This document shows, piece after piece, positions 3,963 through 36,893 of a stretch of 37,063 bases of DNA. The notes below the pieces were generated by a model. That model did no database searches and was not told the DNA's origin. It saw only the letters and a list, made by a program, of their open reading frames with translations. The stretch lies in IMG/VR virus record IMGVR_UViG_3300037586_005480, positions 1-37,063 of that record; one strand, given 5' to 3'. Source of the stretch: a virus. The translations under genes and the position numbers were made by a program. Within the stretch, counting starts at the first letter, position 1. Each line of letters starts with the position of its first letter.

Positions 3963-4358
3963 ATGAAGACAATCAGACGTGACACGATTAGGAAGGTTTA
4001 TCGAGAGGGGATGCTTCAGATCTTCGGCTGCGGCGATAAGGATCTCGATAAGGATCTCATCCACTCGATGAAGAAGGACATGCACATCGCCGGCCAAGCA
4101 CCCGGCTCGTGGGTCGGTGACGGAGCGGTCCTTGAGATATACTGTGAGAGCGGGATCCCGAATGCGACTGACATCAACGACTTCAGCTGTTATGCCGCTG
4201 AAACAGGATGTGACCCTTCAGAGCTGGTGAGCTACAATTCCGACAAGTGGTACCAGCTGGACGAGTACGTGAACCTCTACCTGAAATCGGTCGGGCGCCC
4301 AGAGCGAGTGCACCACGAGCCGTACAATGCAGCGGTCATCGGGATTTACTGGAGCTAG
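3963..4358 (+). CDS. Hypothetical protein
   Basis: 131 aa, third gene of the unit from promoter copy 6, 8 nt after the previous stop with an AGGAG site. The N-terminus is basic (MKTIRRDTIRKVYREG), but it does not match the tag seen after 10,766. The centre has several Cys and Asp residues without a clear zinc pattern. Function unknown. Confidence 0.66.
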   Translation: MKTIRRDTIRKVYREGMLQIFGCGDKDLDKDLIHSMKKDMHIAGQAPGSWVGDGAVLEIYCESGIPNATDINDFSCYAAETGCDPSELVSYNSDKWYQLDEYVNLYLKSVGRPERVHHEPYNAAVIGIYWS

Positions 4359-4363
4359 CACCC

Positions 4364-4392
4364 GTGCAATGTGCGCGGTGGCATGGTATAAT
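4364..4392 (+). promoter_or_regulatory. Early promoter copy 7
   Basis: GTGCAA, 17-bp spacer ending CATGG, TATAAT. CTAGCACCC just upstream (4355-4363) matches the core of the repeat array at 361-604. Confidence 0.85.
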
Positions 4393-4428
4393 AACAAAGC
4401 CAACCAACAAAAAACCAAGGAGTTGAAA

Positions 4429-4809
4429 ATGGCGGATAGAAAGATTGTGATCAGTGACCTCATCGTGGACGGTGAGGATAAGAAGGGGAACCCCGTCTTC
4501 GAGGCGAGTGGGACTCTCAACGAGAACGCCTTCGTGGCTCGGACCATCCAGTATCAGGATGAGCCGATCTTCAAGCTTCAAGAGGGCGGCGAGCACCTGA
4601 AGATGGCGGAGAGCCAGTACACGCGCGGTGATCGGATCGCGGTGGCTCGGGCATGTAAGGCCATGCGACTGGAGCTCTTCGGCTCCGGTCAGAAGGCCCT
4701 CGTGGATTCCGAGCTGGAAGCCGGTGAAACGGTGGAGCTCGTGGCCGACCTCGAGGAAGAGGGGACTCAGGACGAGCTCTCCGATTCGGAGGTCGAGGAA
4801 CAGGGATAG
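4429..4809 (+). CDS. Paralogous early family, member A
   Basis: 126 aa from ATG 4429 after ACCAAGGAG. It shares a conserved core with the proteins at 5273 and 9585: a beta-rich first half, then F(K)L..G, and a YTRGDRIAVARACKAMRLEL signature (about residues 65-84). The acidic C-terminal tail (ELSDSEVEEQG) is unique to this member. The RG-RI-x-IAR-x-CKA motif is basic and could be an OB- or beta-barrel-linked nucleic-acid-binding element. Each member has its own promoter and a downstream hairpin, suggesting abundant expression. Function unknown. Confidence 0.78.
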   Translation: MADRKIVISDLIVDGEDKKGNPVFEASGTLNENAFVARTIQYQDEPIFKLQEGGEHLKMAESQYTRGDRIAVARACKAMRLELFGSGQKALVDSELEAGETVELVADLEEEGTQDELSDSEVEEQG

Positions 4810-5272: not shown

Positions 5273-5569
5273 ATGGCCCGTTTCAAAACCGTCGTAAGCG
5301 ACGTAACTCAAAATGATGACGGCAGCTTTACCGCTACCGGCACCATCCGCGACCTGGTCGGTAAGACCAAGACCAAGGTCTTCACCGCAACCACCATCGA
5401 TTGGCAAGGTGCTCCCATCTTCAAGGTCGAAGGTGCTGGCAATCTCGCTGACCGTCGCTTCAAGCGTGGTGAGCGTATCTCAATCGCTCGGAAGTGCAAG
5501 GCTGCTCGCCTTGAGCTTGAGGCCGCCGCACTGGAGGCCGCTAAGGCCGCCGCTGTGGATGCTGCGTAG
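5273..5569 (+). CDS. Paralogous early family, member B
   Basis: 98 aa from ATG 5273. The smallest and plainest member of the family shared with 4429 and 9585. Residues 1-50 look beta-rich (FKTVVSDV, FTATGTIRD). The FKRGERISIARKCKAARLEL signature follows (about 63-82), then an Ala/Glu helix. The codon usage is clean and the coding looks strongly expressed. A perfect hairpin follows at 5586. No named family matched from memory. Confidence 0.8.
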   Translation: MARFKTVVSDVTQNDDGSFTATGTIRDLVGKTKTKVFTATTIDWQGAPIFKVEGAGNLADRRFKRGERISIARKCKAARLELEAAALEAAKAAAVDAA

Positions 5570-9584: not shown

Positions 9585-9956
9585 ATGGCAGTTGCCAACA
9601 GTAGTTACGAATTCGAAATCACCTCCACTGAGGCGCGCGACGGCGCCCACCCGAAGTCCGGTCTCCTGACCGCGGTCGTGCAGGGAACGTGCACGGACAA
9701 GGACGGCAACGTCTTCGACTTCATCGCCACCAACAACCTCGACCAGCGGTACCCCGACCGCTTCAAGGTGAACTGGAACGGCTCGAAGGCTCGGATGCCT
9801 GAGGTCGTCGGCTTCGGCATCGCCGAGGACGTTCGCGAGGGGACCAAGGTCTCCGACGAACTCTACTTCACCCGCGGCGCGCGAATCGCAATTGCACGTA
9901 AGTGCAAGGCGCTCTTTCCGCTGGCTCGGTTGACCCCCGCCGCCGACGCCAGCTAG
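9585..9956 (+). CDS. Paralogous early family, member C
   Basis: 123 aa from ATG 9585 after ACCAAGGAG. Related to the proteins at 4429 and 5273 through the FTRGARIAIARKCKALFPL signature (about residues 95-113) and a beta-rich first half. It is longer in the middle, with an extra loop between the beta segment and the signature, and ends in a short Ala/Pro tail. A hairpin precedes it and a perfect inverted repeat follows. Function unknown. Confidence 0.78.
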   Translation: MAVANSSYEFEITSTEARDGAHPKSGLLTAVVQGTCTDKDGNVFDFIATNNLDQRYPDRFKVNWNGSKARMPEVVGFGIAEDVREGTKVSDELYFTRGARIAIARKCKALFPLARLTPAADAS

Positions 9957-10765: not shown

Positions 10766-11113
10766 ATGAAAATCACAAAGAGGCAGCTTAGACAGCTTAT
10801 TGTCAGTGAGGCCTCATCTTATCAAATGGCAAAGTATGATGAACAGTCGAATAACATCATGATGTTGACTGGTATCATTATGACAGGCATGCAGATGCAA
10901 ACGGGTAGCGAGCTAGATGAGGACGACGAGTATGAGTACGGTCAGGAAGTTAGATATCAGCTTGAAAAGTATCCAGCACTTACAGATTTTCTAGCCGGAG
11001 TATTTACGGAGATTAAATCAGGTGGTCGATTTCCTGTAACATCTGGTGTAGAAGATGTCGAAGCTGAAGATGAGACTCGTATGGATCTAGGCTATAAGGG
11101 AGACTATTCATGA
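10766..11113 (+). CDS. N-terminally tagged hypothetical protein
   Basis: 115 aa starting MKITKRQLRQLIVSE, the first of a long series of proteins sharing this N-terminal tag. After the tag the sequence is unrelated to other members: a hydrophobic helix rich in Met (IMMLTGIIMTGMQMQ, about residues 31-45) and an acidic second half. No clear L/I-x-E cleavage site follows the tag closely, except IVSE itself. Probably packaged or targeted by the tag. It overlaps the next gene's ATG by 4 nt. Confidence 0.72.
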   Translation: MKITKRQLRQLIVSEASSYQMAKYDEQSNNIMMLTGIIMTGMQMQTGSELDEDDEYEYGQEVRYQLEKYPALTDFLAGVFTEIKSGGRFPVTSGVEDVEAEDETRMDLGYKGDYS

Positions 11114-11757
11114 AAATCACAAAGAGACATCTAAGAAGAATCATTAAAGAGGAGCTATCATTACTTGTAGAGCAGATCGATCAAAAGACCGGTCGTGAAC
11201 TATACTATCCGCCAGGTGAGCCAGGGAGTGGTGTGGGTGATCGGAGGCTTACATATATTCGTGATCAATTTAAGTCGTTGGGCTTTGACGTAGAGGATAG
11301 AGCTACGAGAGAGACATCAGGATCCCCGATAATATATGTTTTTGGTCCACCAGCAGGATGGGAGTGGTACTTCATGGGGCCTGATCAGGGTGTTCCCAAC
11401 TATCAAGTCACAATCGGTAAGTCTTCTGAACCCTGTGAAGGCTACGACAGCAAATCACCCAACTGGGGTAAAGTCCGAAAAGAGTGCTTTGAACCCAGGG
11501 CACGTGCATTTGTTGATAAAATTGCAGAAATCATGTCTCGCCTGGAATTCAAGGCTAAGTCATTTGATAGAGACACAAGAGTAGACGAGGCACCGCACTA
11601 TGCCATATTCTACGGAGCGAGCATAGAGGGATCATCGAAACCTAACAGCAGTAACATCTTAATGACGATATTTGCAGCCGGCGGGAACATGGCGACGAAC
11701 GCTAGAATTTCATTTGAATTAGTAGGGGAGCCATCAGCCTTGAGGCCGGAGGACTGA
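11110..11757 (+). CDS. N-terminally tagged hypothetical protein
   Basis: 215 aa. Tag MKITKRHLRRIIKEELSLLVE with a possible prohead-protease-type site LVE|Q at residues 19-21. The remaining 190 aa form an alpha/beta domain with no recognised family. Residues about 80-120 (FGPPAGWEWYFMGPD) are Gly/Trp-rich. Two Cys flank a GYDSKSPNWG loop. Second gene of the operon at 10766. Likely a virion-internal or injected protein, by tag only. Confidence 0.72.
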   Translation: MKITKRHLRRIIKEELSLLVEQIDQKTGRELYYPPGEPGSGVGDRRLTYIRDQFKSLGFDVEDRATRETSGSPIIYVFGPPAGWEWYFMGPDQGVPNYQVTIGKSSEPCEGYDSKSPNWGKVRKECFEPRARAFVDKIAEIMSRLEFKAKSFDRDTRVDEAPHYAIFYGASIEGSSKPNSSNILMTIFAAGGNMATNARISFELVGEPSALRPED

Positions 11758-11782
11758 TGGCAACGTATAACTGGACAACTAC

Positions 11783-12157
11783 ATGAAGATAACACGGCGC
11801 CAGCTAAAGAATATCATAAGAGAGGAGACAAGACAGTCACTCTTAGAGTCACACGATGACTATCACTTTGGCTTCGGTCCTGAGGAGAGGTACGAGGTGA
11901 CAGGTGAGGAATCTCCAGACGTAGACCTATCAGATCGTGTTAGAGAGTTATACGATGCCTGGACCCCTCAGACCCCGGAGGGAGTAAGGTATAAGGTGCA
12001 GTTAGGTGAGCTCATAGGCATACATCCTGAAGAGGAGGAGGATGTATCTGAGGAGGAGCTAGAGGATATAGAGCCTATCCGGCTCTCCGCGCCCAAGTCC
12101 CAGGCAGAAATAGATCGTCTCGCCTATGGAGTGAGAACTGGTCGCTGGAGGAGATAA
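11783..12157 (+). CDS. N-terminally tagged acidic protein
   Basis: 124 aa with tag MKITRRQLKNIIREE followed by SLLE|S. The body is acidic (EEEEDVSEEELEDIE near residue 80) and ends basic (GVRTGRWRR). The tag is basic and amphipathic, contrasting strongly with the body, as expected of a removable propeptide. Function unknown. Confidence 0.7.
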   Translation: MKITRRQLKNIIREETRQSLLESHDDYHFGFGPEERYEVTGEESPDVDLSDRVRELYDAWTPQTPEGVRYKVQLGELIGIHPEEEEDVSEEELEDIEPIRLSAPKSQAEIDRLAYGVRTGRWRR

Positions 12158-12160
12158 CAC

Positions 12161-12469
12161 ATGAAAATGAGGAGACATCAGCTAAGTGAGATCATAAGGC
12201 GGATCATCCTTGAGCAGGATGCGCAGCATACAGTTCCTGCCACACACCTCATACTTGTCGGTACTCCTTGTGATGCCATCTCTGGATTACCAAACATGTG
12301 GGTGCTTGAGGCTCGTGTGACTACAGTAGAGGGTGGCACCATTGTTGACACACAAAGCGTAAGAGGTGCAACTAGCGCGGAAGATGCCATTGCAAAGATA
12401 CAGCCATGGGTAGAGCAGATGAAGACGAAATATCCCCAGGCTAAGCTAGCAGATCCAGAAGCACCTTGA
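12161..12469 (+). CDS. N-terminally tagged hypothetical protein
   Basis: 102 aa starting MKMRRHQLSEIIRRIILEQ, with IILE|Q as the likely processing site. The body is a compact alpha/beta domain: THLILVGTPCD, WVLEARVTTVEGG, EDAIAKIQPWVEQM. This resembles small double-psi or PepSY-like folds but no family can be named. Spaced 3 nt from the preceding stop. Confidence 0.7.
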   Translation: MKMRRHQLSEIIRRIILEQDAQHTVPATHLILVGTPCDAISGLPNMWVLEARVTTVEGGTIVDTQSVRGATSAEDAIAKIQPWVEQMKTKYPQAKLADPEAP

Positions 12470-12483
12470 TGAGGAGATAGTTA

Positions 12484-12897
12484 GTGAAGATATCAAAGAG
12501 CCAGTTAAGACATCTCATACTTGAGGATATCCACATGCTGACAGAAACAGCAACTAGCGTACCGGGTGCTGTTGAGATACCTCTGTCAAAGGTTCCTGGT
12601 ATGGACTGGGATGACATGGAGATACTACCTGCCGGTGTCGTTGGGAGATATCTATTAGATTTTGACCAGCGCATACGAAATATTGAAAATCACATAACTT
12701 CTGACCAGATGCAGATGGCCAGGCCTGCCAATCTCCCGGAGGCAACCCACATAGTGCGAGAGACGATCCGTGAGCTTCCGGACGGGAGGTATAGGTTAGT
12801 ATCTAAGGCGGGTAAGAACCTTGGAACGTATGACACTAGAGAGGATGCAGAGAAACGTGAGAAACAGGTGAATTACTTTAAGAGTAAAGACGACTAG
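12484..12897 (+). CDS. N-terminally tagged hypothetical protein
   Basis: 137 aa from GTG 12484, with GAGGAG 10 nt upstream. Tag MKISKSQLRHLILEDIHMLTE with LTE|T at residues 19-21. The C-terminal part RYRLVSKAGKNLGTYDTREDAEKREKQV (in pieces about residues 101-130) looks like the GRYRLVSKKGKVLGTFDTKEKAEKREKQV motif I recall from many phage and bacterial small proteins. Last gene of the first tagged operon. Confidence 0.74.
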   Translation: MKISKSQLRHLILEDIHMLTETATSVPGAVEIPLSKVPGMDWDDMEILPAGVVGRYLLDFDQRIRNIENHITSDQMQMARPANLPEATHIVRETIRELPDGRYRLVSKAGKNLGTYDTREDAEKREKQVNYFKSKDD

Positions 12898-13385: not shown

Positions 13386-13589
13386 ATGGGTGAAAAAAAT
13401 AAAAGCGGGTACGAGCTCCGCACTGATTTGCTCGGGATGGCGATTGGCATCGTTTGTGATAAGGTTAACCGACAGTTTGAGAATGAACATCTCAAGCCAG
13501 AAGGTCAGCGTCAAGCTGTTGCGCCTTACACGACTGAAGATATCATCGTAGAGGCAGAAAAGCTTTATACTTTTGTACAAAGCAAGTAG
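13386..13589 (+). CDS. Small helical hypothetical protein
   Basis: 67 aa from ATG 13386, AGGAG upstream. YELRTDLLGMAIGIVCDKVN (about residues 9-28) is a helix like those in small conserved proteins of marine T4-like phages, as I recall. The C-terminus has a TTEDIIVEAEKLYTFV helix. The upstream 88 nt (13298-13385) contain a CA repeat and no gene. Function unknown. Confidence 0.7.
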   Translation: MGEKNKSGYELRTDLLGMAIGIVCDKVNRQFENEHLKPEGQRQAVAPYTTEDIIVEAEKLYTFVQSK

Positions 13590-13601
13590 AAGGTGTATAC
13601 T
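13573..13601 (+). promoter_or_regulatory. Promoter of the large non-coding RNA
   Basis: TTGTAC, 17-bp spacer, TATACT. It overlaps the last codons of the preceding gene and predicts a transcript start near 13608. Confidence 0.58.
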
Positions 13602-13607
13602 TCTATA

Positions 13608-14310
13608 GTTCTTTGAAAACTTATGTGACCCATGTTCTCGGGTCCAAAAATCCAGGTGGAGTTACTGGCTCCTGGACCTAAAGCCTTCGGGTGACGGGAT
13701 AGAGAAAACTCCGATGGAGAAGGTGGCGTTCTTACGTCATGCCGCTTCACTAAGAGGAGGAACGAGTCAAGGGAGGTGGAACTTCCGAAGTCGTTCAGCG
13801 ACCTGATGCATGAGTTCTCATTCCGCTGAGGAAGTGCTGCTGAAGGTATCCACGGACTTGTAGATTCATCGTGGAAACGGGACAAGGGCAAACCAAGAAG
13901 CCGAAAGGCTATAATGTCTTGGGAAGAAGGGTTAACTCTCTTCAGAATCTAACTGTCGGTGACAGAAGTCTCTCTGGTGGAATTGGCAACAAGACCACCG
14001 TCCCGAAAGGGGTCCTGTGGACATGCTCCCAAGGTCTTGGAAGCAGGGCGTGCGACCGCGAGGTGAAGTGTACAGCTCACTCAAGGGAACACAGAATGTC
14101 ATGGCGATAGTAGGGCGTGCTGTTCCGTAGGTATTACAGCCTAAGAACAGGGAGAAAGCTCGTGAACGGCTTTACAGGTCGGTGTGTGCACCTCTAACCA
14201 AAAGGGACAGCTTCGAATTCAAGCGGAGTTGAGGGTCACGAGAATGAAAAGCGAGGTATGCTGCGCTTTTCCCCATTTAAGGCCGGTCGAAAGACCGGCC
14301 TTTTTTTTTT
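13608..14310 (+). ncRNA. Large structured non-coding RNA of about 700 nt
   Basis: No reading frame here has a ribosome-binding site and codon pattern typical of its neighbours. It is bounded by its own promoter (13573) and a textbook terminator (14281). Many local helices are visible: GACCC/GGGTC (near 13627), CCAGG/CCTGG (13652-13675), CCAAGA-AGCC-GAAA-GGCT-TCTTGG (13892-13922), CTGTC/GACAG (13951-13965), GGTGG/CCACC and GTCCCGAAAGGGG (13976-14011). GAAA-type loops are frequent. Size, phage context, and promoter/terminator framing fit the giant ornate phage RNAs GOLLD or ROOL. I cannot confirm membership. RNase P, tmRNA and rRNA are excluded by missing universal motifs. Confidence 0.75.
14281..14310 (+). 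terminator. Strong Rho-independent terminator
   Basis: GGCCGGTC-GAAA-GACCGGCC followed by ten T. It ends the large RNA. Confidence 0.93.
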
Positions 14311-14455: not shown

Positions 14456-15214
14456 TTGTCCATAAAGATAATATACACAAAGTTAAAAGGATTAATTCAA
14501 GAGACTGGTTCTGGTGTAGAGATAAATGGAAATACTTCTATGGTGGGAACCACTAAGATAGTAGGACCTCAGCCTCGCACAGGAACAAATCCGCAGACGG
14601 AGCCTTTAGCGCTAACTGTTTCAGGCTCTATGGGTGTCGAGGTTTCCAACAACTCTTCGTTTATTGTTCAGGTCCCTAGACAGTCTAAGCCAGCTATTCA
14701 CGTACGTGCAGACATTTCACATGTTCGAGTCGGCATAGGGTGTGAGCCCGCCACGAGCGTGCTGCACGTTTCATCATCTGCTGATTCCGGCGGAATGATG
14801 TTTGATGGTAATCCTGGAGATGCGACGTATCTCACATTCAGAAAGCAGGCAGCTACCTCCCCTGGAGGGCAGTGGTCATTTGTGCACAGGGGTGATTCCA
14901 CTCCCGTGTTTTGGTTTTGGGGCTATGATGGCTCTACATATAAAAATGCTTGGAAGTTTGACTATGATGCAGGCGAGATGTCATTTTCTTCTAATGCAGA
15001 TTATGGTGTGATCATAGGCGACACAGGAGTAGATGATACCGCCCAGCTAGAAGTAACATCAACGACTAAAGGATTTCTACCTCCCAGACTGACAACTACA
15101 CAGAGAGATAATATATCTTCTCCTGCGCCGGGCCTAATGATTTACAACACTACTTCAGATAAGTTAAATTTCTATAATGGTACAGATTGGGAAGAGGTTA
15201 CTTCTTCAACATAG
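14456..15214 (+). CDS. Tail-fibre or virion decoration-like protein
   Basis: 252 aa from TTG 14456 with GGGAG upstream. Ser/Thr/Gly-rich beta repeats through the first 190 residues, and a C-terminal segment (GFLPPRLTTTQRDNISSPAP, then GLMIYNTTSDKLNFYNGTDW) typical of phage fibre and neck-appendage proteins and of bacterial exported proteins that use the same trimeric module. No visible intramolecular chaperone domain. The N-terminus (YTKLKGLIQETGSG) also contains LIQE|T, so it may carry a degenerate version of the tag. Probably part of host recognition or the virion surface. Confidence 0.75.
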   Translation: MSIKIIYTKLKGLIQETGSGVEINGNTSMVGTTKIVGPQPRTGTNPQTEPLALTVSGSMGVEVSNNSSFIVQVPRQSKPAIHVRADISHVRVGIGCEPATSVLHVSSSADSGGMMFDGNPGDATYLTFRKQAATSPGGQWSFVHRGDSTPVFWFWGYDGSTYKNAWKFDYDAGEMSFSSNADYGVIIGDTGVDDTAQLEVTSTTKGFLPPRLTTTQRDNISSPAPGLMIYNTTSDKLNFYNGTDWEEVTSST

Positions 15215-15790: not shown

Positions 15791-15815
15791 TCTGAATTAC
15801 TATTTGGAGATAGCT

Positions 15816-16223
15816 GTGAGGATTACACAAAATGAACTTAGAAGAATTATTCTAGAGGCATTTGAAGAAATAGAGAGTGAAGAAGTCACAGATGAGACTG
15901 AAAGCTCTAATCTATTTGATGCTCCAGAGCCTGCAGCTCTTCAAGCTATGCAAAGACGTGAAGAAGAAATGAGATCTAAAGAGCGATGGGGATCTCTATC
16001 TGATGAGGCTTTTGATGTGTCTATTAATCTTATTCAATCTAGGACTCGTGGTTCAATTGATCCAATAGCACGGCTATATATGAAGGTTAGAGATATTGTT
16101 CACTCATCTGACACGGGTGAAGAAGCATGGCCTAGAGAAATAGAGATACAAGAAGGGTTTGATGCAGCCCTAAGCAGTATTATCCATAGAACTGTACTGG
16201 CGTATGATGAGGGAGAAATATAA
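15816..16223 (+). CDS. N-terminally tagged acidic protein
   Basis: 135 aa. GTG 15816 chosen over TTG 15804 because GGAG (15806-15809) lies 6 nt upstream of it and because the protein then begins with the tag MRITQNELRRIILEAFEEIE. The body is acidic and helical. A DPIARLYMKVRDIV segment lies near residue 83. Function unknown. It overlaps the next start by 1 nt (TAATG). Confidence 0.7.
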   Translation: MRITQNELRRIILEAFEEIESEEVTDETESSNLFDAPEPAALQAMQRREEEMRSKERWGSLSDEAFDVSINLIQSRTRGSIDPIARLYMKVRDIVHSSDTGEEAWPREIEIQEGFDAALSSIIHRTVLAYDEGEI

Positions 16224-16510
16224 TGAAAGTCTCTCAGAAAATGCTTAAGAGGCTTATTAAAGAAGTCTATGAGGATTCAGAGAGAGAATATGAAATTCTT
16301 CAAGCATCTGAGAATCTGGCTTCAACATTATCATCTGAGTGGAGTAAAGAAGAGGCATATAAGATTATAGTTTATGCTGCAGATATACTTAATCCTGGAT
16401 CATATAGTCCTAGTGAAGAAGAAAAAGAAGAATTTATGACAGAACCTTTTCCAGGATCAAGAAAAATTCCTGTCGGATCATTAAGCTGGAGAGATCGTGA
16501 GAGTAACTAA
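16223..16510 (+). CDS. N-terminally tagged hypothetical protein
   Basis: 95 aa starting MKVSQKMLKRLIKEVYED. No strong L/I-x-E site directly after the tag. The body is acidic and helical with a Pro/Ser-rich end. Coupled to both neighbours by overlaps (16223; 16497-16510). Function unknown. Confidence 0.68.
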   Translation: MKVSQKMLKRLIKEVYEDSEREYEILQASENLASTLSSEWSKEEAYKIIVYAADILNPGSYSPSEEEKEEFMTEPFPGSRKIPVGSLSWRDRESN

Positions 16511-17006
16511 AAAATATCTTAGAGAGATTATATTAAACGAGATTAACAACATCGTCACAGAGATGTGCGGTCCTTGTGCTGCTGGAGCTGAAGGTGATGG
16601 ACATGGTGATGTTAATCTTATGTCTAGAGTTTCACCTGACGTACTTCCTGATGATGGACCTGGTTCTCCACTTACAAAACAAGAAGCACTTAAGGCTGTT
16701 ATGGCTATAGCAAATGATACATCATGCCCTGTGACTAGATCTGCACTTGAAGATATTGTTAATAATCTTTCCAGTGAGCAGGAATATGAAGATCATGACT
16801 ATGATACGGGAATGGAAGTTCTCCACAGTGATCATGGCGGACAATCATGTGGTGAAGCACATCCCAGTGAATCTCATGATAGCTGGGTATCTGGGGGACA
16901 GGCGAGAGTTCCTAATTTAGGAAGCCTAGATCCTCATTCAGCATTTGGCCCGGGACATGGTGTGGGTTCAGGTGAAATAAATGACTACACTATCTCAGGA
17001 GAATAA
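16497..17006 (+). CDS. N-terminally tagged Cys/His/Asp-rich protein
   Basis: 169 aa from GTG 16497 after GGAGAG. Tag MRVTKKYLREIILNEINNIVTE with VTE|M. The body begins CGPCAAGAEGDGHGD and is rich in His, Asp and Gly (GDGHGDVN, DHDYDTGMEVLHSDHGG), suggesting metal binding. A short helical domain (LTKQEALKAVMAIANDTS) lies in the middle. Function unknown. Confidence 0.7.
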   Translation: MRVTKKYLREIILNEINNIVTEMCGPCAAGAEGDGHGDVNLMSRVSPDVLPDDGPGSPLTKQEALKAVMAIANDTSCPVTRSALEDIVNNLSSEQEYEDHDYDTGMEVLHSDHGGQSCGEAHPSESHDSWVSGGQARVPNLGSLDPHSAFGPGHGVGSGEINDYTISGE

Positions 17007-20565: not shown

Positions 20566-20940
20566 ATGAAGATCACACGTAGACAATTAAGACAGGTAAT
20601 CAAGGAAGAACTAAGCATTGTGATTAATGAGGGCAATGATGAAACTACCTATAAACTTGTCACAGAAAAAATAATTGAAAAATTAGGCGAGCTAGCTGGT
20701 GAACAAGTACAAAAAGGTGCCTTTACATACGAAATATATAAAGGACAGAAGGGTAGCTACTATCAATTCAATATAGTTAATAAGCAATTTCATATGAAAG
20801 CACAACAGTCCGCACTTAAACAAAGCACAGATATCCAAAGAGAAGCTAGCAAAATTGTTAGAGAGCATTTAGATCTAGATGAATCCGATAAGCCTGTTTA
20901 CTATGGAACCAATGACTATCACTCTTGGAAGCTAAAATGA
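20566..20940 (+). CDS. N-terminally tagged hypothetical protein
   Basis: 124 aa. Tag MKITRRQLRQVIKEELSIVINE with INE|G at residues 20-22. The body is alpha/beta, Lys/Gln-rich (FTYEIYKGQKGSYYQFNIV), with a helix QSTDIQREASKIVREHL and a short C-terminal strand. No family recognised. The tag DNA is nearly identical to that of the next two genes. Confidence 0.72.
   Translation: MKITRRQLRQVIKEELSIVINEGNDETTYKLVTEKIIEKLGELAGEQVQKGAFTYEIYKGQKGSYYQFNIVNKQFHMKAQQSALKQSTDIQREASKIVREHLDLDESDKPVYYGTNDYHSWKLK
20575..20609 (+). repeat. Tag-encoding 35-bp repeat, copy 1
   Basis: ACACGTAGACAATTAAGA, then 6 variable bases, then ATCAAGGAAGA. Shared with 20946 and 21431. 31 of 35 positions agree with copy 2. 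Confidence 0.85.
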
Positions 20941-21422
20941 AAATAACACGTAGACAATTAAGACGACTCATCAAGGAAGAGATATCCCACCTTACCGAGA
21001 CCGAGCACGATGAAGGAGATGAGCCTTACAAGCCAGGCTCGTACAAGGCAAAGGGACACTGGGAAGAGCGCTCGCCAGGGACGCGGACATATGTTTCGCC
21101 TCCCCGCCCTGATCCTTCAAAACCTGAGCCCATCCCTATAGAGGAACTCACGTGGCAACCTGATAAGGACGGTAACATGAAGGTATCTGACGCCGGGGGC
21201 GGAGACTGGTGGAGTACACTCGACTCAGAGGATGACCTCCCACTGTGGAAAGAGCAGGTGGCCTCTCACGGCCCTGGCTCAACGGTGGTCTTTACCGGGC
21301 GACCAGAGCTGCCCGGTCTGACCGGCCGATGGACCTACCACTCCGGTCCCTGGGCCGAGAAGTCCCACGCATATCAGAGCGCGAAGGCGGCCACCCTTGC
21401 CAAGTGGGGAACCACTTGGTAA
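20937..21422 (+). CDS. N-terminally tagged protein in a GC-rich island
   Basis: 161 aa from ATG 20937, which overlaps the previous TGA. Four extra residues upstream (from 20925) are unlikely because the tag MKITRRQLRRLIKEEISHLTE starts here. LTE|T follows. The body is Pro/Gly/Trp-rich (TWQPDKDGNMKV, GRWTYHSGPWAEKSH), and its bases are clearly more GC-rich than those of its neighbours, hinting at a recent graft onto the tag. No family recognised. Confidence 0.72.
   Translation: MKITRRQLRRLIKEEISHLTETEHDEGDEPYKPGSYKAKGHWEERSPGTRTYVSPPRPDPSKPEPIPIEELTWQPDKDGNMKVSDAGGGDWWSTLDSEDDLPLWKEQVASHGPGSTVVFTGRPELPGLTGRWTYHSGPWAEKSHAYQSAKAATLAKWGTTW
20946..20980 (+). repeat. Tag-encoding 35-bp repeat, copy 2
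   Basis: 33 of 35 bases equal copy 3 at 21431. Confidence 0.85.
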
Positions 21423-21730
21423 TGCGTATCACACGTAGACAATTAAGAAGGCTCATCAAGGAAGAGGTTCAAGGTATCCTTGAGGCTGGAAAGGGCGGAT
21501 CAGCTGACGTAGCTTATCCGGGTGATCTTGGTATTCCAACTCCTGCAGGAGAAAATATAGACGAAGAGGACGCTGCAGCCCATGGAGAGGAAGAAGAAGA
21601 TGTTGATGATGAGATCCGAGCAACAACTGCAAAAATGCAAACCGACAAAGGAGCTCAAGCGACAGTTGACAGAGACCAGCTAAGAATGCTAACTCAAAAA
21701 CAAACTGACCTAGCTGATGTTTCAGGATAG
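21422..21730 (+). CDS. N-terminally tagged acidic protein
   Basis: 102 aa from ATG 21422, overlapping the previous TAA. A longer reading from 21245 lies inside the upstream gene. Tag MRITRRQLRRLIKEEVQGILE with ILE|A. The body is acidic (EEDAAAHGEEEEDVDDE), then helical. Likely a removable basic tag on an acidic cargo. Function unknown. Confidence 0.7.
   Translation: MRITRRQLRRLIKEEVQGILEAGKGGSADVAYPGDLGIPTPAGENIDEEDAAAHGEEEEDVDDEIRATTAKMQTDKGAQATVDRDQLRMLTQKQTDLADVSG
21431..21465 (+). repeat. Tag-encoding 35-bp repeat, copy 3
   Basis: Third near-identical copy. The distances between copies are 371 and 485 bp, so this is not a tandem array but gene-start duplication. Confidence 0.85.
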
Positions 21731-21819
21731 CAATTATTTGATGGAAAAATTGTAATAAATTTTATATGTATAAAGGACGTTGATCACTTTTAATCTTAAT
21801 CGAACTATATGAGGATAAA

Positions 21820-22089
21820 ATGAAGATTTCAAAGAAAAAATTAATGAGAATAATAAGTGAAGAAATTTCACTTATTAAGGAGTCTGGAGATCTAGAAGAG
21901 GGAAGGTTTGGCTCACTAGCAAAGGCTATCGCGACACCGCTAGTACCAGGTGGTAGATTTATTTCAGACTATTCTCAAGCTAGAGGGTTTGATGAATTAG
22001 AGGACTTTGCTGGGGATGCAGAGTCTAAACTAGCAGATCTTGAACAAAGGGTCGCTGCCATAGAGTCTCTTATACAGTCGGCTCCATAG
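21820..22089 (+). CDS. N-terminally tagged hypothetical protein
   Basis: 89 aa. Tag MKISKKKLMRIISEEISLIKE with IKE|S. Then a Gly-rich loop (LVPGGRFISDY) and a C-terminal coiled-coil-like helix (ESKLADLEQRVAAIESLIQ, residues 68-86). AT-rich codons again. Function unknown. Confidence 0.7.
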   Translation: MKISKKKLMRIISEEISLIKESGDLEEGRFGSLAKAIATPLVPGGRFISDYSQARGFDELEDFAGDAESKLADLEQRVAAIESLIQSAP

Positions 22090-24173: not shown

Positions 24174-26249
24174 GTGAACATACATGAACAAAGGCTAAGA
24201 GCGCTAGTTAGAGAAGAGATTATTAAAAAGAACTCTAATGTGAGATCACATAGAATTCTCAATGAAGCTACACAGAGTGACATAATTGATGTACAAAATG
24301 CTCTTGGAATACCAGAGAATGGAGATGTCGGCACGGTGTGGGGTCCCTGGTGGGACTTTCTTCAGGATAACTATAGACAGTGGGTCTACGTAGATGGTCA
24401 AGATCTCTCTGGTCTAACAAGCGCTATACCTTCACTTCAAAGCGTGTATGATGACTGGGAGGATCAAGCTGATGATCTAGGTTACCCACCAGGTGATCCT
24501 AGCTCCATGGCGGAGTTTATTAGAGCAGGAGGTCAACCTAGAGCGGGTTCTCCTGCACATAATGAATATATTGAACGTATTGGTCCTGAAGAGGCCGAAC
24601 CCACTCTGAGGGGTACAGAGAATATAATATTTGATCAGGGTTTCGGGAGTGTTCAGACAGGTAAGGTGAAGGGAGACTGGGAGGTAAAGGGATCATCCTT
24701 CGAGGGAGCTGGTAAAATCATACTTACTTTTGATGAAAATGGATTCATTGAGGATAATTCAGAATGGTCTAAGATTATAGACGGTGTTAAAGATTCCCTG
24801 GCACCTTGGCAACTAGGTGGAAGAGATGATGATAGCATCTTTAGCACGTGGAATGTCATACAAGCGATCAAGGATTATAGCTTTTTTGACACAACTGAGG
24901 AGGTTGTAATTCTAGCGTTGGCTCAGCTAGATAAGGACTTTACATCCGCGGTGGGTCATTCAATAGCTGATGAACTAACTGACTGGAAAAATGCACTTGT
25001 CGGAAGCGGCGTGGGAGCAGATGCAGGCAGAAAAAGAGATAAGATGATACAGATTATGGGTGGTGTTGATCCTGGAGTCATAGAGGATGCGACAGAGCTA
25101 GCTAAGGCGGCACTGAGTCGCCTACGTAGAGGTGGTGAAGAGATCGGAGAGAGAGTTCCAGAGCTTCCTAGAGAAGCTGTTGCGGCGAAGAGAATTTTAA
25201 ACGTGATCAGATCTTCAGTAAGGGATGTTCTACTTGAAGGAACATTAGATACAAACACCAGAGATGTCCCACCTCGAGGCGGTAGTAGAGGATCACAGGA
25301 GGCAAGGGGTGACGACGACGACAGCGCTGTCGGCGACGATGACTGGGCTGACAACGGTGACGGCGCTGATGATGTAACTACAGCTGATGACACAGATGTC
25401 GACAATGACGGCACTCCTGACGTGGATGAGAGGCCAGGCGATCCCACATCAGATTCTGATACTCCGAGGTCTAGGAGGTATACAGATAGTAAATACTGGC
25501 CATCTCAGGTCGTAAAAGATATTCAGGCCATAGTTGGAGCACCGTCTTGTTCACGATCTAGGGGCTGTGACGGAATGTGGGGCCCTAGGACACAGGGGTC
25601 GTGGGAAAGTCACCTGGAGCGAAAATTTGAAGAGCTAGGTGAGGACTGGAAGGATATCTCACATAAAGCTATGTGGCCTGACATGTCCAGGGCTGTTTCT
25701 GTTATAGCAGGTGAAACATTTGCTGGCAATCCAGAAGGAGCATTGTTATTCTTAAGGCATATCGGAGGACTGCAATCGACAAGAGAGGCAGAGGTGGAGA
25801 CAGAACCGGTGCCGACAACAGTGGATACACCCCAGGGTAGTGGACCACTTGATAGAGAGGTGAGAAGGGATGCAAGTGGCAGGACAGTAGAAAGAGAATT
25901 GTTTCCAGGATCTGTGGCGAGCAGCAGCACTGAAGCAAGAGTTCACAGATACATTCCAAGAGTGCCAATAATGTACGACTATATGGGAAGTGCTCTCAGA
26001 GGTCCTGGACAATCTAAGCCAGAGGAAAAAATTAAAAGAGTGGTTGTCGTCATGGACACAAAGCTTCCACTAAACAATGAAACAGCAGGATTTAGCCCAG
26101 ACGGTTCGTGGGTTGGAAGTAATTCTGATGTGGCAGAAATTAGAATGTTTTCACCATTTATGAGAAGATATAGGAGAAACCATCCAGGCCATAAGGAACT
26201 TCTTAGGTGGATAAAAGATGAAATTGGCTGGGAACATTTCAACGTATGA
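24174..26249 (+). CDS. Large tagged peptidoglycan-binding-like virion protein
   Basis: 691 aa from GTG 24174, with GGAGG 8 nt upstream. ATG 24159 overlaps that site. Tag MNIHEQRLRALVREE, then ILNE|A near residue 32. A peptidoglycan-binding-like repeat follows at about 35-70 (IIDVQNALGIP...VWGPWWDFLQD). An internal tag-like helix ends VRDVLLE|G near residue 355. An Asp-rich linker with a thrombospondin-type-3 pattern DVDNDGTPDVDERPGD comes next, then a second peptidoglycan-binding-like unit (VKDIQAIVG...CDGMWGPRTQGSWESHL). The C-terminal domain (about 590-691) is unrecognised. Likely a virion protein that acts on the cell wall during entry. Confidence 0.75.
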   Translation: MNIHEQRLRALVREEIIKKNSNVRSHRILNEATQSDIIDVQNALGIPENGDVGTVWGPWWDFLQDNYRQWVYVDGQDLSGLTSAIPSLQSVYDDWEDQADDLGYPPGDPSSMAEFIRAGGQPRAGSPAHNEYIERIGPEEAEPTLRGTENIIFDQGFGSVQTGKVKGDWEVKGSSFEGAGKIILTFDENGFIEDNSEWSKIIDGVKDSLAPWQLGGRDDDSIFSTWNVIQAIKDYSFFDTTEEVVILALAQLDKDFTSAVGHSIADELTDWKNALVGSGVGADAGRKRDKMIQIMGGVDPGVIEDATELAKAALSRLRRGGEEIGERVPELPREAVAAKRILNVIRSSVRDVLLEGTLDTNTRDVPPRGGSRGSQEARGDDDDSAVGDDDWADNGDGADDVTTADDTDVDNDGTPDVDERPGDPTSDSDTPRSRRYTDSKYWPSQVVKDIQAIVGAPSCSRSRGCDGMWGPRTQGSWESHLERKFEELGEDWKDISHKAMWPDMSRAVSVIAGETFAGNPEGALLFLRHIGGLQSTREAEVETEPVPTTVDTPQGSGPLDREVRRDASGRTVERELFPGSVASSSTEARVHRYIPRVPIMYDYMGSALRGPGQSKPEEKIKRVVVVMDTKLPLNNETAGFSPDGSWVGSNSDVAEIRMFSPFMRRYRRNHPGHKELLRWIKDEIGWEHFNV

Positions 26250-26929
26250 ATGAGGAAATTCTAAGACAGATGATAAGAGAGGTTTTAATAACTGAGAAGC
26301 TAAAGAGTGTTTATGATACAGGAAGAGCGCCTGACAGACAAACAGCTTCAACCTCTACTAGTCGAAGGGAGTCTACGGGAGATGTGAAAATAAATAAAGA
26401 TAACATAGGAAATGGACCATCTGATAGCTCTGGAATACGAAGTGGTGTCAAAACTACTGACGCAATATTATCTGCGTGGAACTGGCTAAGGCCATTTCTT
26501 CCATCAGGTGCCATCATGACGTCAGGTGAGAGAAGTCAATCAGATCAAGATAGGACAATAAGAAATTATGCTGATAGAGAAAATATAACCTATAGTGATC
26601 TTGATGATGCTGTTGAGAAATTACGTGAAAAAGGTTTTGTCATAGCGAGACATGTTTCTACTGGTGGGGGCAGAGGGCATGGAACAGGATTAGCATTTGA
26701 TATATCTGGAGCAAGACTAGAGGACATAAAGAAGTCTATTGAGTTCGCCACTAACAATGGATCAATACATGTAAAATTTAATCCTTTCGGAAGTGGTGAT
26801 GATCCCTCTATAGTTGAAGAAACAAACAATGCAGTACATGCTGTTATAAAATCTGTTCAGGTATACAGCAATAGAGACATGGTGGCATTTGTAGACTCAG
26901 CAACAGGAGCCGATACAGCGACCGCGTAG
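26246..26929 (+). CDS. Tagged peptidase M15-like hydrolase
   Basis: 227 aa, overlapping the previous stop by 4 nt. Tag MNEEILRQMIREVLITE|K. A Ser/Thr-rich linker (about residues 25-60) leads to a hydrolase domain with SGERSQSDQDR and the GRGHGTGLAFDIS motif (about 137-149), as in M15 D-Ala-D-Ala peptidases (SxHxxGxAxD), and a later SIHVKF histidine. Likely cuts peptide stems of peptidoglycan, either in the virion for entry or at lysis. The twin tag at 26950 suggests the two act together. Confidence 0.72.
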   Translation: MNEEILRQMIREVLITEKLKSVYDTGRAPDRQTASTSTSRRESTGDVKINKDNIGNGPSDSSGIRSGVKTTDAILSAWNWLRPFLPSGAIMTSGERSQSDQDRTIRNYADRENITYSDLDDAVEKLREKGFVIARHVSTGGGRGHGTGLAFDISGARLEDIKKSIEFATNNGSIHVKFNPFGSGDDPSIVEETNNAVHAVIKSVQVYSNRDMVAFVDSATGADTATA

Positions 26930-26949
26930 CGGTCTTATCGTTTAAAATT

Positions 26950-27681
26950 ATGAATGAATATCTTCTAAGAAATTTAATACGAGAAGTTTTACTAACTGAG
27001 AAGCTAAAGGGTTTAGAAGGCTGGGTTCACGGAGAGGAGCGTGGATCGCTAGGGTATGAAGAAACATTTGAAGATGTCACATCAGATACAACAGATGCTG
27101 CACTTAATGCCGAACAGGAGCTTTCAAGCTGGGGAAATGCTGTAGAGACTGATCCGGAAGTTAGAGATACTTTAGTTAAGTATTGGAGAAATATTCCAGG
27201 AGAGGATCCAGATAGAAATATAGAAATTAGAAGACCATGGAGTGCTGCATTTATTTCCTGGATTCAGCGAAATGATCCAGAATTTCAGGGATCAAGGGGT
27301 CACAGCACATATATGAGACTGGCAAAGCAATCTAGAGATAGAGGCAAACATCATGGTGGATTTGTTGCATTTCAACCTCATGAGCTACCAGCAGGTCCGG
27401 ACAGAGGTGACCTTGTGTGCAGACCCAGAGATGGATCAGGAAATGGATGGGATCAAATAGGTAGCTTTAATCACTGTGACATATATACCGGCAATAATAG
27501 GATGATAGGAGGAAATGTCAATGATAATATTGACACAGTATCATATTCTCCTAGCAGAGCTACAATGATCATTAAAAAACTCAATCCAGCTGGATCCTTT
27601 GACATTTCAGAATCTGAGACTAGAGATATTATAAGTGAAATTATTTCTGAGATGCTTGACGAGGTATGCGAAAAGGTCTAG
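26950..27681 (+). CDS. Tagged DUF2272-like (NlpC/P60-like) cell-wall hydrolase
   Basis: 243 aa. Tag MNEYLLRNLIREVLLTE|KLKG, nearly the same as that of 26246. The body has RPWSAAFISWIQRNDPEF, SRGHSTYMRL, GPDRGDLVCRPRDG and FNHCDIYTGNNRMIGGN, the ordered motifs of DUF2272 proteins, which are related to papain-like peptidoglycan hydrolases. The C-terminal acidic helix (ETRDIISEIISEMLDEV) is unusual. Probably a virion-carried muralytic enzyme. 26930-26949 contains the hairpin ACCGCGTAGCGGT. Confidence 0.76.
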   Translation: MNEYLLRNLIREVLLTEKLKGLEGWVHGEERGSLGYEETFEDVTSDTTDAALNAEQELSSWGNAVETDPEVRDTLVKYWRNIPGEDPDRNIEIRRPWSAAFISWIQRNDPEFQGSRGHSTYMRLAKQSRDRGKHHGGFVAFQPHELPAGPDRGDLVCRPRDGSGNGWDQIGSFNHCDIYTGNNRMIGGNVNDNIDTVSYSPSRATMIIKKLNPAGSFDISESETRDIISEIISEMLDEVCEKV

Positions 27682-29546: not shown

Positions 29547-30713
29547 ATGTCAATCTTCAGAAATCATAAAACCTCAGCTGATCGATCAGCAACAGATAGG
29601 AGCAGGCACAAGAAAAAGATACGAGATGCAATAAAAGAAGGTATTCATGATATAGTTTCAGATGAATCAATTATCGGTCAAGACGGAAAGAAGAGAATTA
29701 AAATACCAGTCCGAGGAATAAAAGAGTATAGATTTGTTTACGGAAATAATGAAAAAAACAAGAGTGCTGGATCTGCTCCAGGTAAAAATATAAGAAAAGG
29801 ACAGAAGATAGGATCAGGAAAGAAAAAAGAAAAGGACGGCGACGGAAAGGCAGGAAATAAAGAGGGTGAAGAGATTTATGAGGTTGAAATTACACTAGAA
29901 GAACTATCGTATTATCTTTTTGATAATTTAAATCTACCAGAGCTTGAAAAGAAAAAGTTTAAAGATATGGTGGGTGATAAAATAAAAAGAAAAGGATATA
30001 GGTCAAAGGGGATAAGACCTAGACTTTCAAAGAAAGAGACCCTCAAGAATAAAATCAGAAGAAAAAAGGCTACAGCATATACGGGAAGCCTAGATAGAAA
30101 TAAAGATGAGAGATTTCCATTTCATAAAAATGATCTAAAGTATAGACATATAGATGTAAAACCTAAGGAAAATAGTAATGCTGTTATATTTTTTGTAATG
30201 GACACCTCAGGGTCTATGACAAAAGAAAAGAAGTTTATGGCTAGGTCATTTTTCTTTTTACTTTATCATTTTTTAAGACACAAATATGAAAATGTAGAAA
30301 TTGTATTTATTTCTCACACTATTTCAGCAAAAGAAGTAAGTGAGAATGACTTCTTTAAGCGAGCAAGCTCAGGAGGCACATTACTATCTTCAGGAATTGA
30401 AAAGTGTCTTGATATTTCAAAGAAAAGATATCACCCAGATGCTTGGAATATTTATACATTTCACTGTAGTGATGGAGATAATTGGCCAGAAGATAATGCT
30501 AAATCCATAGATCTATCTCACACGCTAAAATCTATTTGTCAGCTTTATTGTTATATTCAGATTGTTCCAGAAACAGATAGAATCGCATGGACTGAGGGAG
30601 GAATGGCAACAGTATATTCTGAACTTGAAGACGCTAAGTTCAGAATTGTGAATTTAGAATCGCCAGATGATATTTGGCCACAATTTAAGAAAATTTTTGG
30701 AGGAAAGCAATAA
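29547..30713 (+). CDS. yeaH: YeaH/UPF0229 (DUF444) von Willebrand factor A protein
   Basis: 388 aa, full length. An N-terminal basic region with DESIIGQDGKKRIKIPVRG is followed by a Lys/Gly-rich stretch and a VWA domain with the MIDAS residues DTSGSM (219-224), a GGT and SDGDNW. In bacteria YeaH is encoded with the kinase PrkA/YeaG and SpoVR/YcgB and is expressed in starvation; its biochemical role is not settled. Here it starts a three-gene operon, unusual for a phage. Its stop overlaps the start of spoVR by 1 nt. Confidence 0.92.
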   Translation: MSIFRNHKTSADRSATDRSRHKKKIRDAIKEGIHDIVSDESIIGQDGKKRIKIPVRGIKEYRFVYGNNEKNKSAGSAPGKNIRKGQKIGSGKKKEKDGDGKAGNKEGEEIYEVEITLEELSYYLFDNLNLPELEKKKFKDMVGDKIKRKGYRSKGIRPRLSKKETLKNKIRRKKATAYTGSLDRNKDERFPFHKNDLKYRHIDVKPKENSNAVIFFVMDTSGSMTKEKKFMARSFFFLLYHFLRHKYENVEIVFISHTISAKEVSENDFFKRASSGGTLLSSGIEKCLDISKKRYHPDAWNIYTFHCSDGDNWPEDNAKSIDLSHTLKSICQLYCYIQIVPETDRIAWTEGGMATVYSELEDAKFRIVNLESPDDIWPQFKKIFGGKQ

Positions 30714-32020
30714 TGTCTAATTGGAATCTTGATGATTTAAGTGAGTGGGATGACAAGATTTGTAATCTTGCAGAAAAATATGGACTAGACTGGCACAAGA
30801 TAAACTATGAAGTCTGCGACTATTATGAAATGATTGGACACATGTCGTATCACGGTGTTCCTTCACACTACAATCACTGGTCATATGGAAAGTCATTTGA
30901 AAGAACTCATCAGCTATACAATGCAGGAGTGGAAGGATTGCCGTACGAATTGATCATAAATTCTGATCCATCAATAGCCTATCTAATGAAAGAAAATCCA
31001 TTCTATCTTCAGATACTAATAATGGCTCATTGTGTAGGACACAGCGATTTCTTTAAAAATAATAGAGCATTTAAAAATACAAGGCCTGATATTATTGTAT
31101 CCAGATTTAGAAATGCAAAAAAAAGAATCCAAGGCTATATTGAAAATCCAAATATAGGAATAGATTATGTTGAAACATTTCTTGATGCTCTTCATACTGT
31201 AAGATTTCAAACAGAGAGAAATAATATAAGGCGCCTATCTAAAAAAGAAATTGAACAAAAATATGTAAATATTATTAATAATGATAAAACTGAAAAGTAT
31301 AAAAATTTTGACATAGATAAAGATCTTCTAGAGCCAGATTATGATTTATTAGGGTTTCTTATAGAGCACGGAACACACTTTAAAGATTGGCAAATTGATA
31401 TATTGAATATCGTTAGAGATGAATCTCATTATTTTATGCCGCAGATAAAGACAAAAATAATGAATGAAGGATGGGCGTGCTTTTGGCACTATAAGCTATT
31501 AAATGAATTAAATTTACCACAGTCATGTCATATTCCATTTTTAAAATCTCACAATCAGGTTGTCAGGCCACATCTTGGAAAAATAAATCCGTATCATCTG
31601 GGTTTCTTTTTATTTAAAAAGCTTGAAAAAGACTTAGGAATAGATGAGTGCTTCTTTATAAGAGAAATTCATGAGGATGAGTCGTTTATAAGGTGCTATT
31701 TAGATCTCGATGCGTGTAGAGATTTAAACTTATTTACATACTCTACAAAAAAAACCGGAATAACAATAGATGATGTATCTGATGAAGAGAGTTGGATTTC
31801 TGTTAGAGACGGATTAATTAAGAATATAGGATTAAATTCAATTCCAAGGGTTTTTGTATCCGATATATCAACCTCAGGTGATTTAATACTGGAACATGAT
31901 CATGATGGAAGGGACTTGGAATTAGACTATGCAGAAGAAGTTGTTAGAAAAATACAGACAATCTGGCCCAAAGATGTTAAATTTTTTACTATTATTGAAG
32001 AAGAACCTTGGGAAATATGA
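30713..32020 (+). CDS. spoVR: SpoVR family protein
   Basis: 435 aa, slightly shorter than the usual 470-510. Family hallmarks are present: HWSYGKSFERTHQLYNAG, PYELIINSDPSIAYLM, MAHCVGHSDFFKNN and DESHYFMPQIKTKIMNEGWA. SpoVR was named for spore cortex formation in Bacillus but occurs widely next to prkA and yeaH in bacteria that do not sporulate. Start overlaps the yeaH stop (TAATG). A role with the kinase is inferred from conserved gene order. Confidence 0.93.
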   Translation: MSNWNLDDLSEWDDKICNLAEKYGLDWHKINYEVCDYYEMIGHMSYHGVPSHYNHWSYGKSFERTHQLYNAGVEGLPYELIINSDPSIAYLMKENPFYLQILIMAHCVGHSDFFKNNRAFKNTRPDIIVSRFRNAKKRIQGYIENPNIGIDYVETFLDALHTVRFQTERNNIRRLSKKEIEQKYVNIINNDKTEKYKNFDIDKDLLEPDYDLLGFLIEHGTHFKDWQIDILNIVRDESHYFMPQIKTKIMNEGWACFWHYKLLNELNLPQSCHIPFLKSHNQVVRPHLGKINPYHLGFFLFKKLEKDLGIDECFFIREIHEDESFIRCYLDLDACRDLNLFTYSTKKTGITIDDVSDEESWISVRDGLIKNIGLNSIPRVFVSDISTSGDLILEHDHDGRDLELDYAEEVVRKIQTIWPKDVKFFTIIEEEPWEI

Positions 32021-32042
32021 TATAATAGGTGTGGAGGAGTAG

Positions 32043-36553: not shown

Positions 36554-36893
36554 GGGCCCGAAATGGTATCGACAGGGTAGCTAAGGAGTATAAGAGTGCA
36601 GGTGACCTCAGGGAACAGCTGGTCTAAAGAGCGGTTTCAAAAACCATAATTGCCAATAACAATTATTACGAACAGCGGTTAGCCGCTTAATCGGGTGGTT
36701 GTCTAAAACCATCTATCCAATTTAGGCTAAGTGAAGTAGCATCACTGAAATAAAATAATGCTCGAATCTCAGTCCGTGAATGAGAGGGTTTACCAGCGGA
36801 AATTTTGTTAGTTTAGAAAAACTGAATAAACCTGTGAATGACTTGATCCCAGAATTGCTTTGGACGCGAGTTCGACTCTCGCCGGGTCCACCA
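36554..36893 (+). ncRNA. ssrA: Transfer-messenger RNA (tmRNA)
   Basis: A complete tmRNA of about 340 nt. 5' GGGCCCG pairs with 3' CGGGTCC, followed by ACCA. The T-arm is GCGAG-TTCGACT-CTCGC (36866-36882) and a D-arm-like ATGGTATCGACAG follows the acceptor. The tag frame starts at GCC 36652 and reads ANNNYYEQRLAA, stopping at TAA 36688-36690; the LAA end is the ClpXP/ClpAP degron. CCA is encoded. Phages rarely carry tmRNA. It would release stalled ribosomes and tag their products during infection. Confidence 0.95.

Follow-up and report, generated by a model that had tools for sequence, protein, structure and literature searches.

A large pseudoknotted RNA encoded by a phage, of a probable new class, with a boxA-like motif at its 5' end

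The window analyzed here, a 37,063-base IMG/VR virus record with PrkA, DUF444 and SpoVR genes and a tmRNA, contains a stretch of about 700 nt for which a first-pass annotation found no supported reading frame, and which it took for an ornate non-coding RNA with its own promoter and terminator, resembling GOLLD or ROOL or possibly representing a new class. Few RNA classes longer than 500 nt are known, and ROOL and GOLLD, large phage RNAs often situated near tRNA islands and forming RNA-only cages in vitro, are without known function (PMC12286853). The questions raised by this locus are therefore whether it really encodes an RNA, to which class such an RNA would belong and what it could do during infection.

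A conserved fold in place of a reading frame

No reading frame conserved among copies of the RNA was found in the window and 19 others. The longest ORF within the RNA (13871-14110, 79 codons) differs little from the median of 74 codons obtained by shuffling and is frame-shifted and/or interrupted by stops in 18 of the 19 other copies, so the absence of a supported frame was correctly recognized. The single-sequence fold of the window RNA lies approximately 4 sd below shuffles (n=20), but the fold of a lone sequence is weak evidence and would also suit a non-functional intergenic stretch that merely folds well, therefore relatives of the RNA were sought. The first homologue (L090, 70% identity, E 7e-61) was the source of conserved blocks for exact-pattern scans, each match being submitted to a profile test, and whole records were searched with covariance models. 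Copies with about 53-93% identity were gathered from 29 further IMG/VR or MAG records, which together with the window makes 30 records. All 21 matches of one exact-pattern scan were genuine copies, and the pattern-scan matches L137, L141-L144, L146 and L221 were dropped as chance after profile tests.

A model of 176 pairs, pseudoknots included, was built with RNAalifold and covariation on an alignment of 20 copies. Canonical pairs occupy 96.4% of its cells, while slid controls are 38-46% paired. Two-sided compensatory change was observed in 114 of the 176 pairs, which are the covarying pairs among related phages that the first-pass annotation had proposed to look for. There are 551 compensated cells versus 154 +/- 13 in shuffles, and the covariation score is 0.531 in comparison with 0.245 for shuffles and about 0.1 for slid partners. 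None of 500 shuffles reached any of the measures; this control ignores relatedness, and the contigs are metagenomic with common ancestry, while the slid and held-out controls are not so affected. As the model was drawn from the 20 sequences, we tested it on five later copies outside model building (L222, L215, L219, L220 and L216, with 86, 72, 70, 53 and 53% identity to the nearest aligned copy, respectively). They keep 98.9, 89.0, 89.2, 71.9 and 71.9% of the pairs, the last two copies being alike and therefore amounting together to about one independent test. Each of the five has 23-53 doubly changed pairs and is 35-53% canonical when slid. Compensatory changes thus go beyond the controls, also in sequences that played no part in the model.

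Table 1. Features of the RNA gene and its surroundings in the window
Feature	Position	Strand	Remarks
Whole RNA gene	13608..14309	+	boxA to end of terminator T-run; 20-copy alignment and covariation model; held-out test
Promoter-like TTGTAC-N17-TATACT, unproven	13573..13601	+	overlaps coding end of 13386-13589
boxA-like antitermination motif GTTCTTTGAAAA	13608..13619	+	5' end of RNA
5' hairpin GACCC/GGGTC	13627..13644	+	loop 13635-13637 pseudoknots with 13704-13706
5' domain, two adjacent covarying stem-loops (13709-13759, 13760-13796)	13709..13796	+	helices 5-10 of model
Branched arm	13801..13847	+	helices 11-13 of model
Hairpin, loop 13861-13867 in 7-bp pseudoknot with 13945-13951	13849..13875	+	helix 15
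Central multibranched domain	13952..14111	+	helices 18-28 of model
Stem CTGTTC/GAACAG, upper part covarying	14120..14150	+	helix 29; conserved GGGAG(A/G)AA segment next
3' domain closed by CTCGTGA/TCACGAG	14159..14242	+	helices 30-35 of model
3'-terminal hairpin	14245..14274	+	inner segment 14256-14261 pseudoknots with 3'-domain apical loop 14184-14189
Intrinsic terminator, 10-bp stem, GAAA loop, T-run	14279..14309	+	stem-loop and T8 at 14279-14302

The alignment, the covariation model and the held-out test identify a large structured RNA gene on the plus strand (Table 1), and we regard the existence of a real structured RNA class as practically certain. The ornate non-coding RNA first suggested for this region is thereby strongly supported, and the reading of a non-functional stretch, refuted by the covariation and held-out tests within the limits of sequence evidence, keeps only a negligible probability. 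The extent has to be corrected: the conserved RNA runs from the boxA at 13608 to about 14309, and the start formerly placed at 13573 takes in the end of the upstream gene 13386-13589.

Three pseudoknots of the RNA covary. Two of the three pairs in the one nearest the 5' end vary as UA16/CG4 and CG17/GC3; the 7-bp pseudoknot is 100% canonical in the 20 copies with four of its seven pairs doubly changed; and in that of the 3'-terminal hairpin two positions show CG10/UA10 and a third has five pair types. The central domain includes an invariant hairpin CCC-GAAA-GGG (14002-14011), which could be a candidate for tertiary docking. A closing helix GTGACCC/GGGTCAC, proposed by the single-sequence fold of the window, was rejected because the relatives support the local GACCC/GGGTC and CTCGTGA/TCACGAG helices instead.

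No homologue was found in cultured phages and plasmids by blastn with the window, L150 and L206 copies as queries, plasmid matches being short and confined to the terminator. In a pattern scan of cellular genomes (one per species, 84,980 species) the RNA was present in two MAG contigs only, PBIO01000025.1 and the 305 kb NHDW01000006.1, the latter of which also has a T4-type Gp23 gene. Where present, the RNA is single-copy per record, and it is missing from most related records searched, several of them 250-360 kb long, although those records may be fragments. Such patchy, single-copy occurrence is what one expects of an accessory gene that phages exchange among themselves. Many IMG/VR contigs, with lengths of up to 361 kb, carry relatives of the window's PrkA (69-81% identity), and in a close relative (L184) a T4-type Gp23 capsid gene lies 650 nt before the RNA copy, which is why we place the RNA in large T4-like phages. 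Judging from the named MAGs and from general knowledge of such samples, we take the carrier phages to be mostly marine.

The rest of the window has features of its own. The DUF444-SpoVR-PrkA triad, here in a phage, occupies 29547-33971. At least a dozen ORFs, among them 10766-12897, 15804-17006, 20566-22089 and 26246-27681, have in common an N-terminal peptide of the MKITRRQLRxIIxEE type, which resembles the cleavable sequence that targets T4 internal head proteins to the capsid; by this analogy their products may be packaged in the head. Three short paralogues (4327-4809, 5273-5569 and 9585-9956) have a common C-terminal segment of the RGxRIxIARxCKA type. Directly downstream of the RNA lies a tail-fibre-like ORF with a TTG start (14456-15214), the C-terminus of which matches tail fibre families.

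Ends of the RNA and its neighbours

The promoter proposed at 13573 exists as a sequence, yet its occurrence is at chance level, with one site of the TTGTAC-N17-TATACT type in the region versus 0.9 expected in shuffles, and TTGTAC is part of the coding sequence for the final residues (F-V-Q) of the 67-aa product of the upstream gene. For both reasons we consider it unproven. The upstream regions of the 20 copies give a median promoter shuffle p of 0.28. L136 has a similar arrangement, TGTACA-N16-TATAAT, so a real promoter in the window is still conceivable. The claim of a terminator is confirmed: AAGGCCGGTC-GAAA-GACCGGCCTT followed by T8 forms a strong intrinsic terminator at 14279-14302, and in several relatives a T-run comes directly after the 3'-terminal hairpin. 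The RNA would be transcribed from its own promoter or jointly with an upstream tRNA.

At the 5' end of the RNA, in a fixed place before untranslated sequence, 24 of the 25 copies (19 of 20 aligned and all five held-out) have TCTTTNANA, an rRNA-type boxA. Several copies read TCTTTAACA and are thus identical to the core of boxA in the rrnB leader of E. coli (GCTCTTTAACAATTTATC). The motif is identified as boxA by its sequence and position; its activity is presumed. A motif this short might alternatively form one strand of the RNA's own structure, as RNAalifold pairs it with GGAGA, though without covariation. It is known that boxA directs NusB/NusE antitermination on untranslated RNA, and that in rRNA operons it recruits NusB-NusE and is situated shortly upstream of 16S and 23S rRNA (PMC4807359). 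By the same mechanism the boxA described here would load NusB-NusE onto RNA polymerase, which would allow a long untranslated RNA to escape Rho and to fold during its synthesis. We consider such boxA-assisted synthesis probable. In the literature searched (open-licence papers) no report of a conserved boxA for large ornate phage RNAs was found.

The conservation of boxA among copies could also mean that the RNA is a decoy, in which boxA and perhaps other rRNA-like surfaces titrate NusB/NusE (S10) or ribosomal components and so turn the host's rRNA synthesis or its translation to the benefit of the phage. There are precedents for this, since lambda nutL RNA, when transcribed at a high level, reportedly titrates Nus factors and reduces the expression of rRNA (PMC4807359), and GOLLD has been reported to bind ribosomes in pull-downs (PMC12286853). 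However, a short boxA RNA would be enough for titration, which leaves the conserved 176-pair fold unexplained, and the position of boxA at the extreme 5' end is what a cis-acting leader predicts. We therefore hold a decoy to be unlikely.

In six of the 20 contexts a complete tRNA gene ends at most 50 nt upstream of the RNA profile match on the same strand, the tRNAs being Ser three times, Asn, Thr and Lys. Random placement gives 0.38 such cases even within 150 nt, and six were reached in none of 20,000 permutations. The later copy L222 also has a tRNA-Ser just upstream of the RNA. Neither the boxA nor these tRNA genes had been noted in the first-pass annotation. In the window itself there is no tRNA near the RNA, only a tmRNA 22 kb away (36554-36893, tag ANNNYYEQRLAA); tmRNAs are also found near the RNA in L180, L188 and L211. 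A location within 50 nt of a tRNA gene in six loci, together with an intricate conserved fold, could suggest a ribozyme, an intron remnant or a by-product of tRNA-precursor processing. This is very improbable: the adjoining tRNAs are complete, the majority of copies are flanked by protein genes with neither a tRNA nor an interrupted gene at the locus, and group I, group II, RNase P and all Rfam ribozyme families are without a match.

A gene family common to all contexts of the RNA was not found. About half of them encode, within 1 kb of the RNA, small proteins of one-TM or lipoprotein-like type, which have a single hydrophobic segment at the N-terminus and a low-complexity tail of acidic and Thr residues, and an FKBP-type isomerase is nearby in about six. 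These neighbours, and long invariant single-stranded segments which could serve as protein sites, are in accordance with a ribonucleoprotein scaffold that binds phage or host proteins, as OLE binds membrane proteins, the complex doing the work. The lack of a common family speaks against such a scaffold, and so does the fact that the same small proteins accompany P0002-family genes in L106 and L110, in which no RNA was found, in addition to the loci L178, L179, L181, L183, L185, L188, L208 and L210. Together with the P0002, P0001 and FKBP families they make up a cassette that frequently adjoins the RNA; we therefore assign them to this neighbouring cassette and have rejected them as a cognate small membrane protein. 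A scaffold of this kind seems to us rather doubtful, yet it is a more credible alternative than a decoy. In L184 (8744-9298) and L190 a zinc-finger protein with NUMOD-like repeats is encoded directly upstream of the RNA; it is a possible homing endonuclease and might help the RNA to move.

Class, possible role and comparison with known RNAs

In the 20 copies Rfam 15, with GOLLD and ROOL included, gave no match to the RNA at permissive thresholds; apart from the neighbouring tRNAs, what appeared were weak matches attributable to chance, most of them to terminator hairpins. Introns, RNase P, riboswitches, HEARO and OLE were not found at or near gathering score inside the RNA. The covariance model of GOLLD (RF02032) had no match in the window and 19 further copies up to E 5-10, nor did that of ROOL (RF03087) inside the RNA in the 20 copies; in a positive control, run for the ROOL model only, the known pMP118 ROOL was recovered. 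Membership in either family, which had been considered at first, is thus not supported, whereas tRNA adjacency, phage distribution, size and pseudoknots all add weight to the likeness of kind, and the alternative of a new class has gained strong support. On the strength of these comparisons we assign the RNA to a new class among large ornate phage RNAs, outside the GOLLD and ROOL families and of the same kind. No prior description of it was found in the literature searched (open-licence papers).

We infer transcription, antitermination, stability and an architectural role for this RNA. The finished molecule would act in infection as a compact architectural RNA, either an RNA-only multimer or an RNP, and would work like ROOL and GOLLD, not in the way of guides, mRNA leaders or introns. 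This role, proposed by analogy, is tentative, though a real possibility. The lack of a gene family common to all contexts recurs in the RNA-only ROOL and GOLLD (PMC12286853). Overall, we slightly prefer the explanation that the locus is a gene standing by itself, which encodes a large non-coding RNA with pseudoknots; this RNA belongs to a new class patchily carried by large T4-like phages, would be made with the help of boxA and would have an architectural role. More speculative, and rather improbable, is that the phage makes this RNA as rRNA is made, with boxA borrowing the antitermination and folding machinery of the host, so that the RNA becomes very abundant and an RNA-only particle takes over from, or holds on to, components of the host translation apparatus in the course of infection. 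A further and unrelated class in large T4-like phages, again situated by tRNA genes and equipped with a conserved boxA, would indicate that phages resort to ornate RNAs as a recurrent strategy.

Among known systems, rRNA leaders likewise place boxA shortly before a long, structured RNA that is not translated, in some cases with a co-transcribed tRNA, but the present RNA is not itself rRNA (no Rfam match) and no boxB, boxC or leader-trailer helix was identified here. OLE is also a large ornate bacterial RNA, and small membrane proteins are sometimes encoded near the present RNA; however, OLE has defined protein partners, in contrast to the lack of both a conserved partner gene and an Rfam match here. 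GOLLD is often longer than 800 nt, and its 3' region is conserved and its 5' region variable, whereas the fold described here is conserved along its whole length. The two have in common that they are large ornate phage RNAs near tRNA islands, a location which in our case is seen in the copies of relatives rather than in the window, and GOLLD too was first seen partly in aquatic metagenomes. From ROOL the RNA is set apart by the lack of nhmmer similarity to pMP118 ROOL and by its conserved boxA, none having been found before the one ROOL inspected. Like ROOL, it is an ornate RNA of about 600-700 nt with several pseudoknots, borne by phages or prophages, often near tRNA genes and without a known protein partner (PMC12286853).
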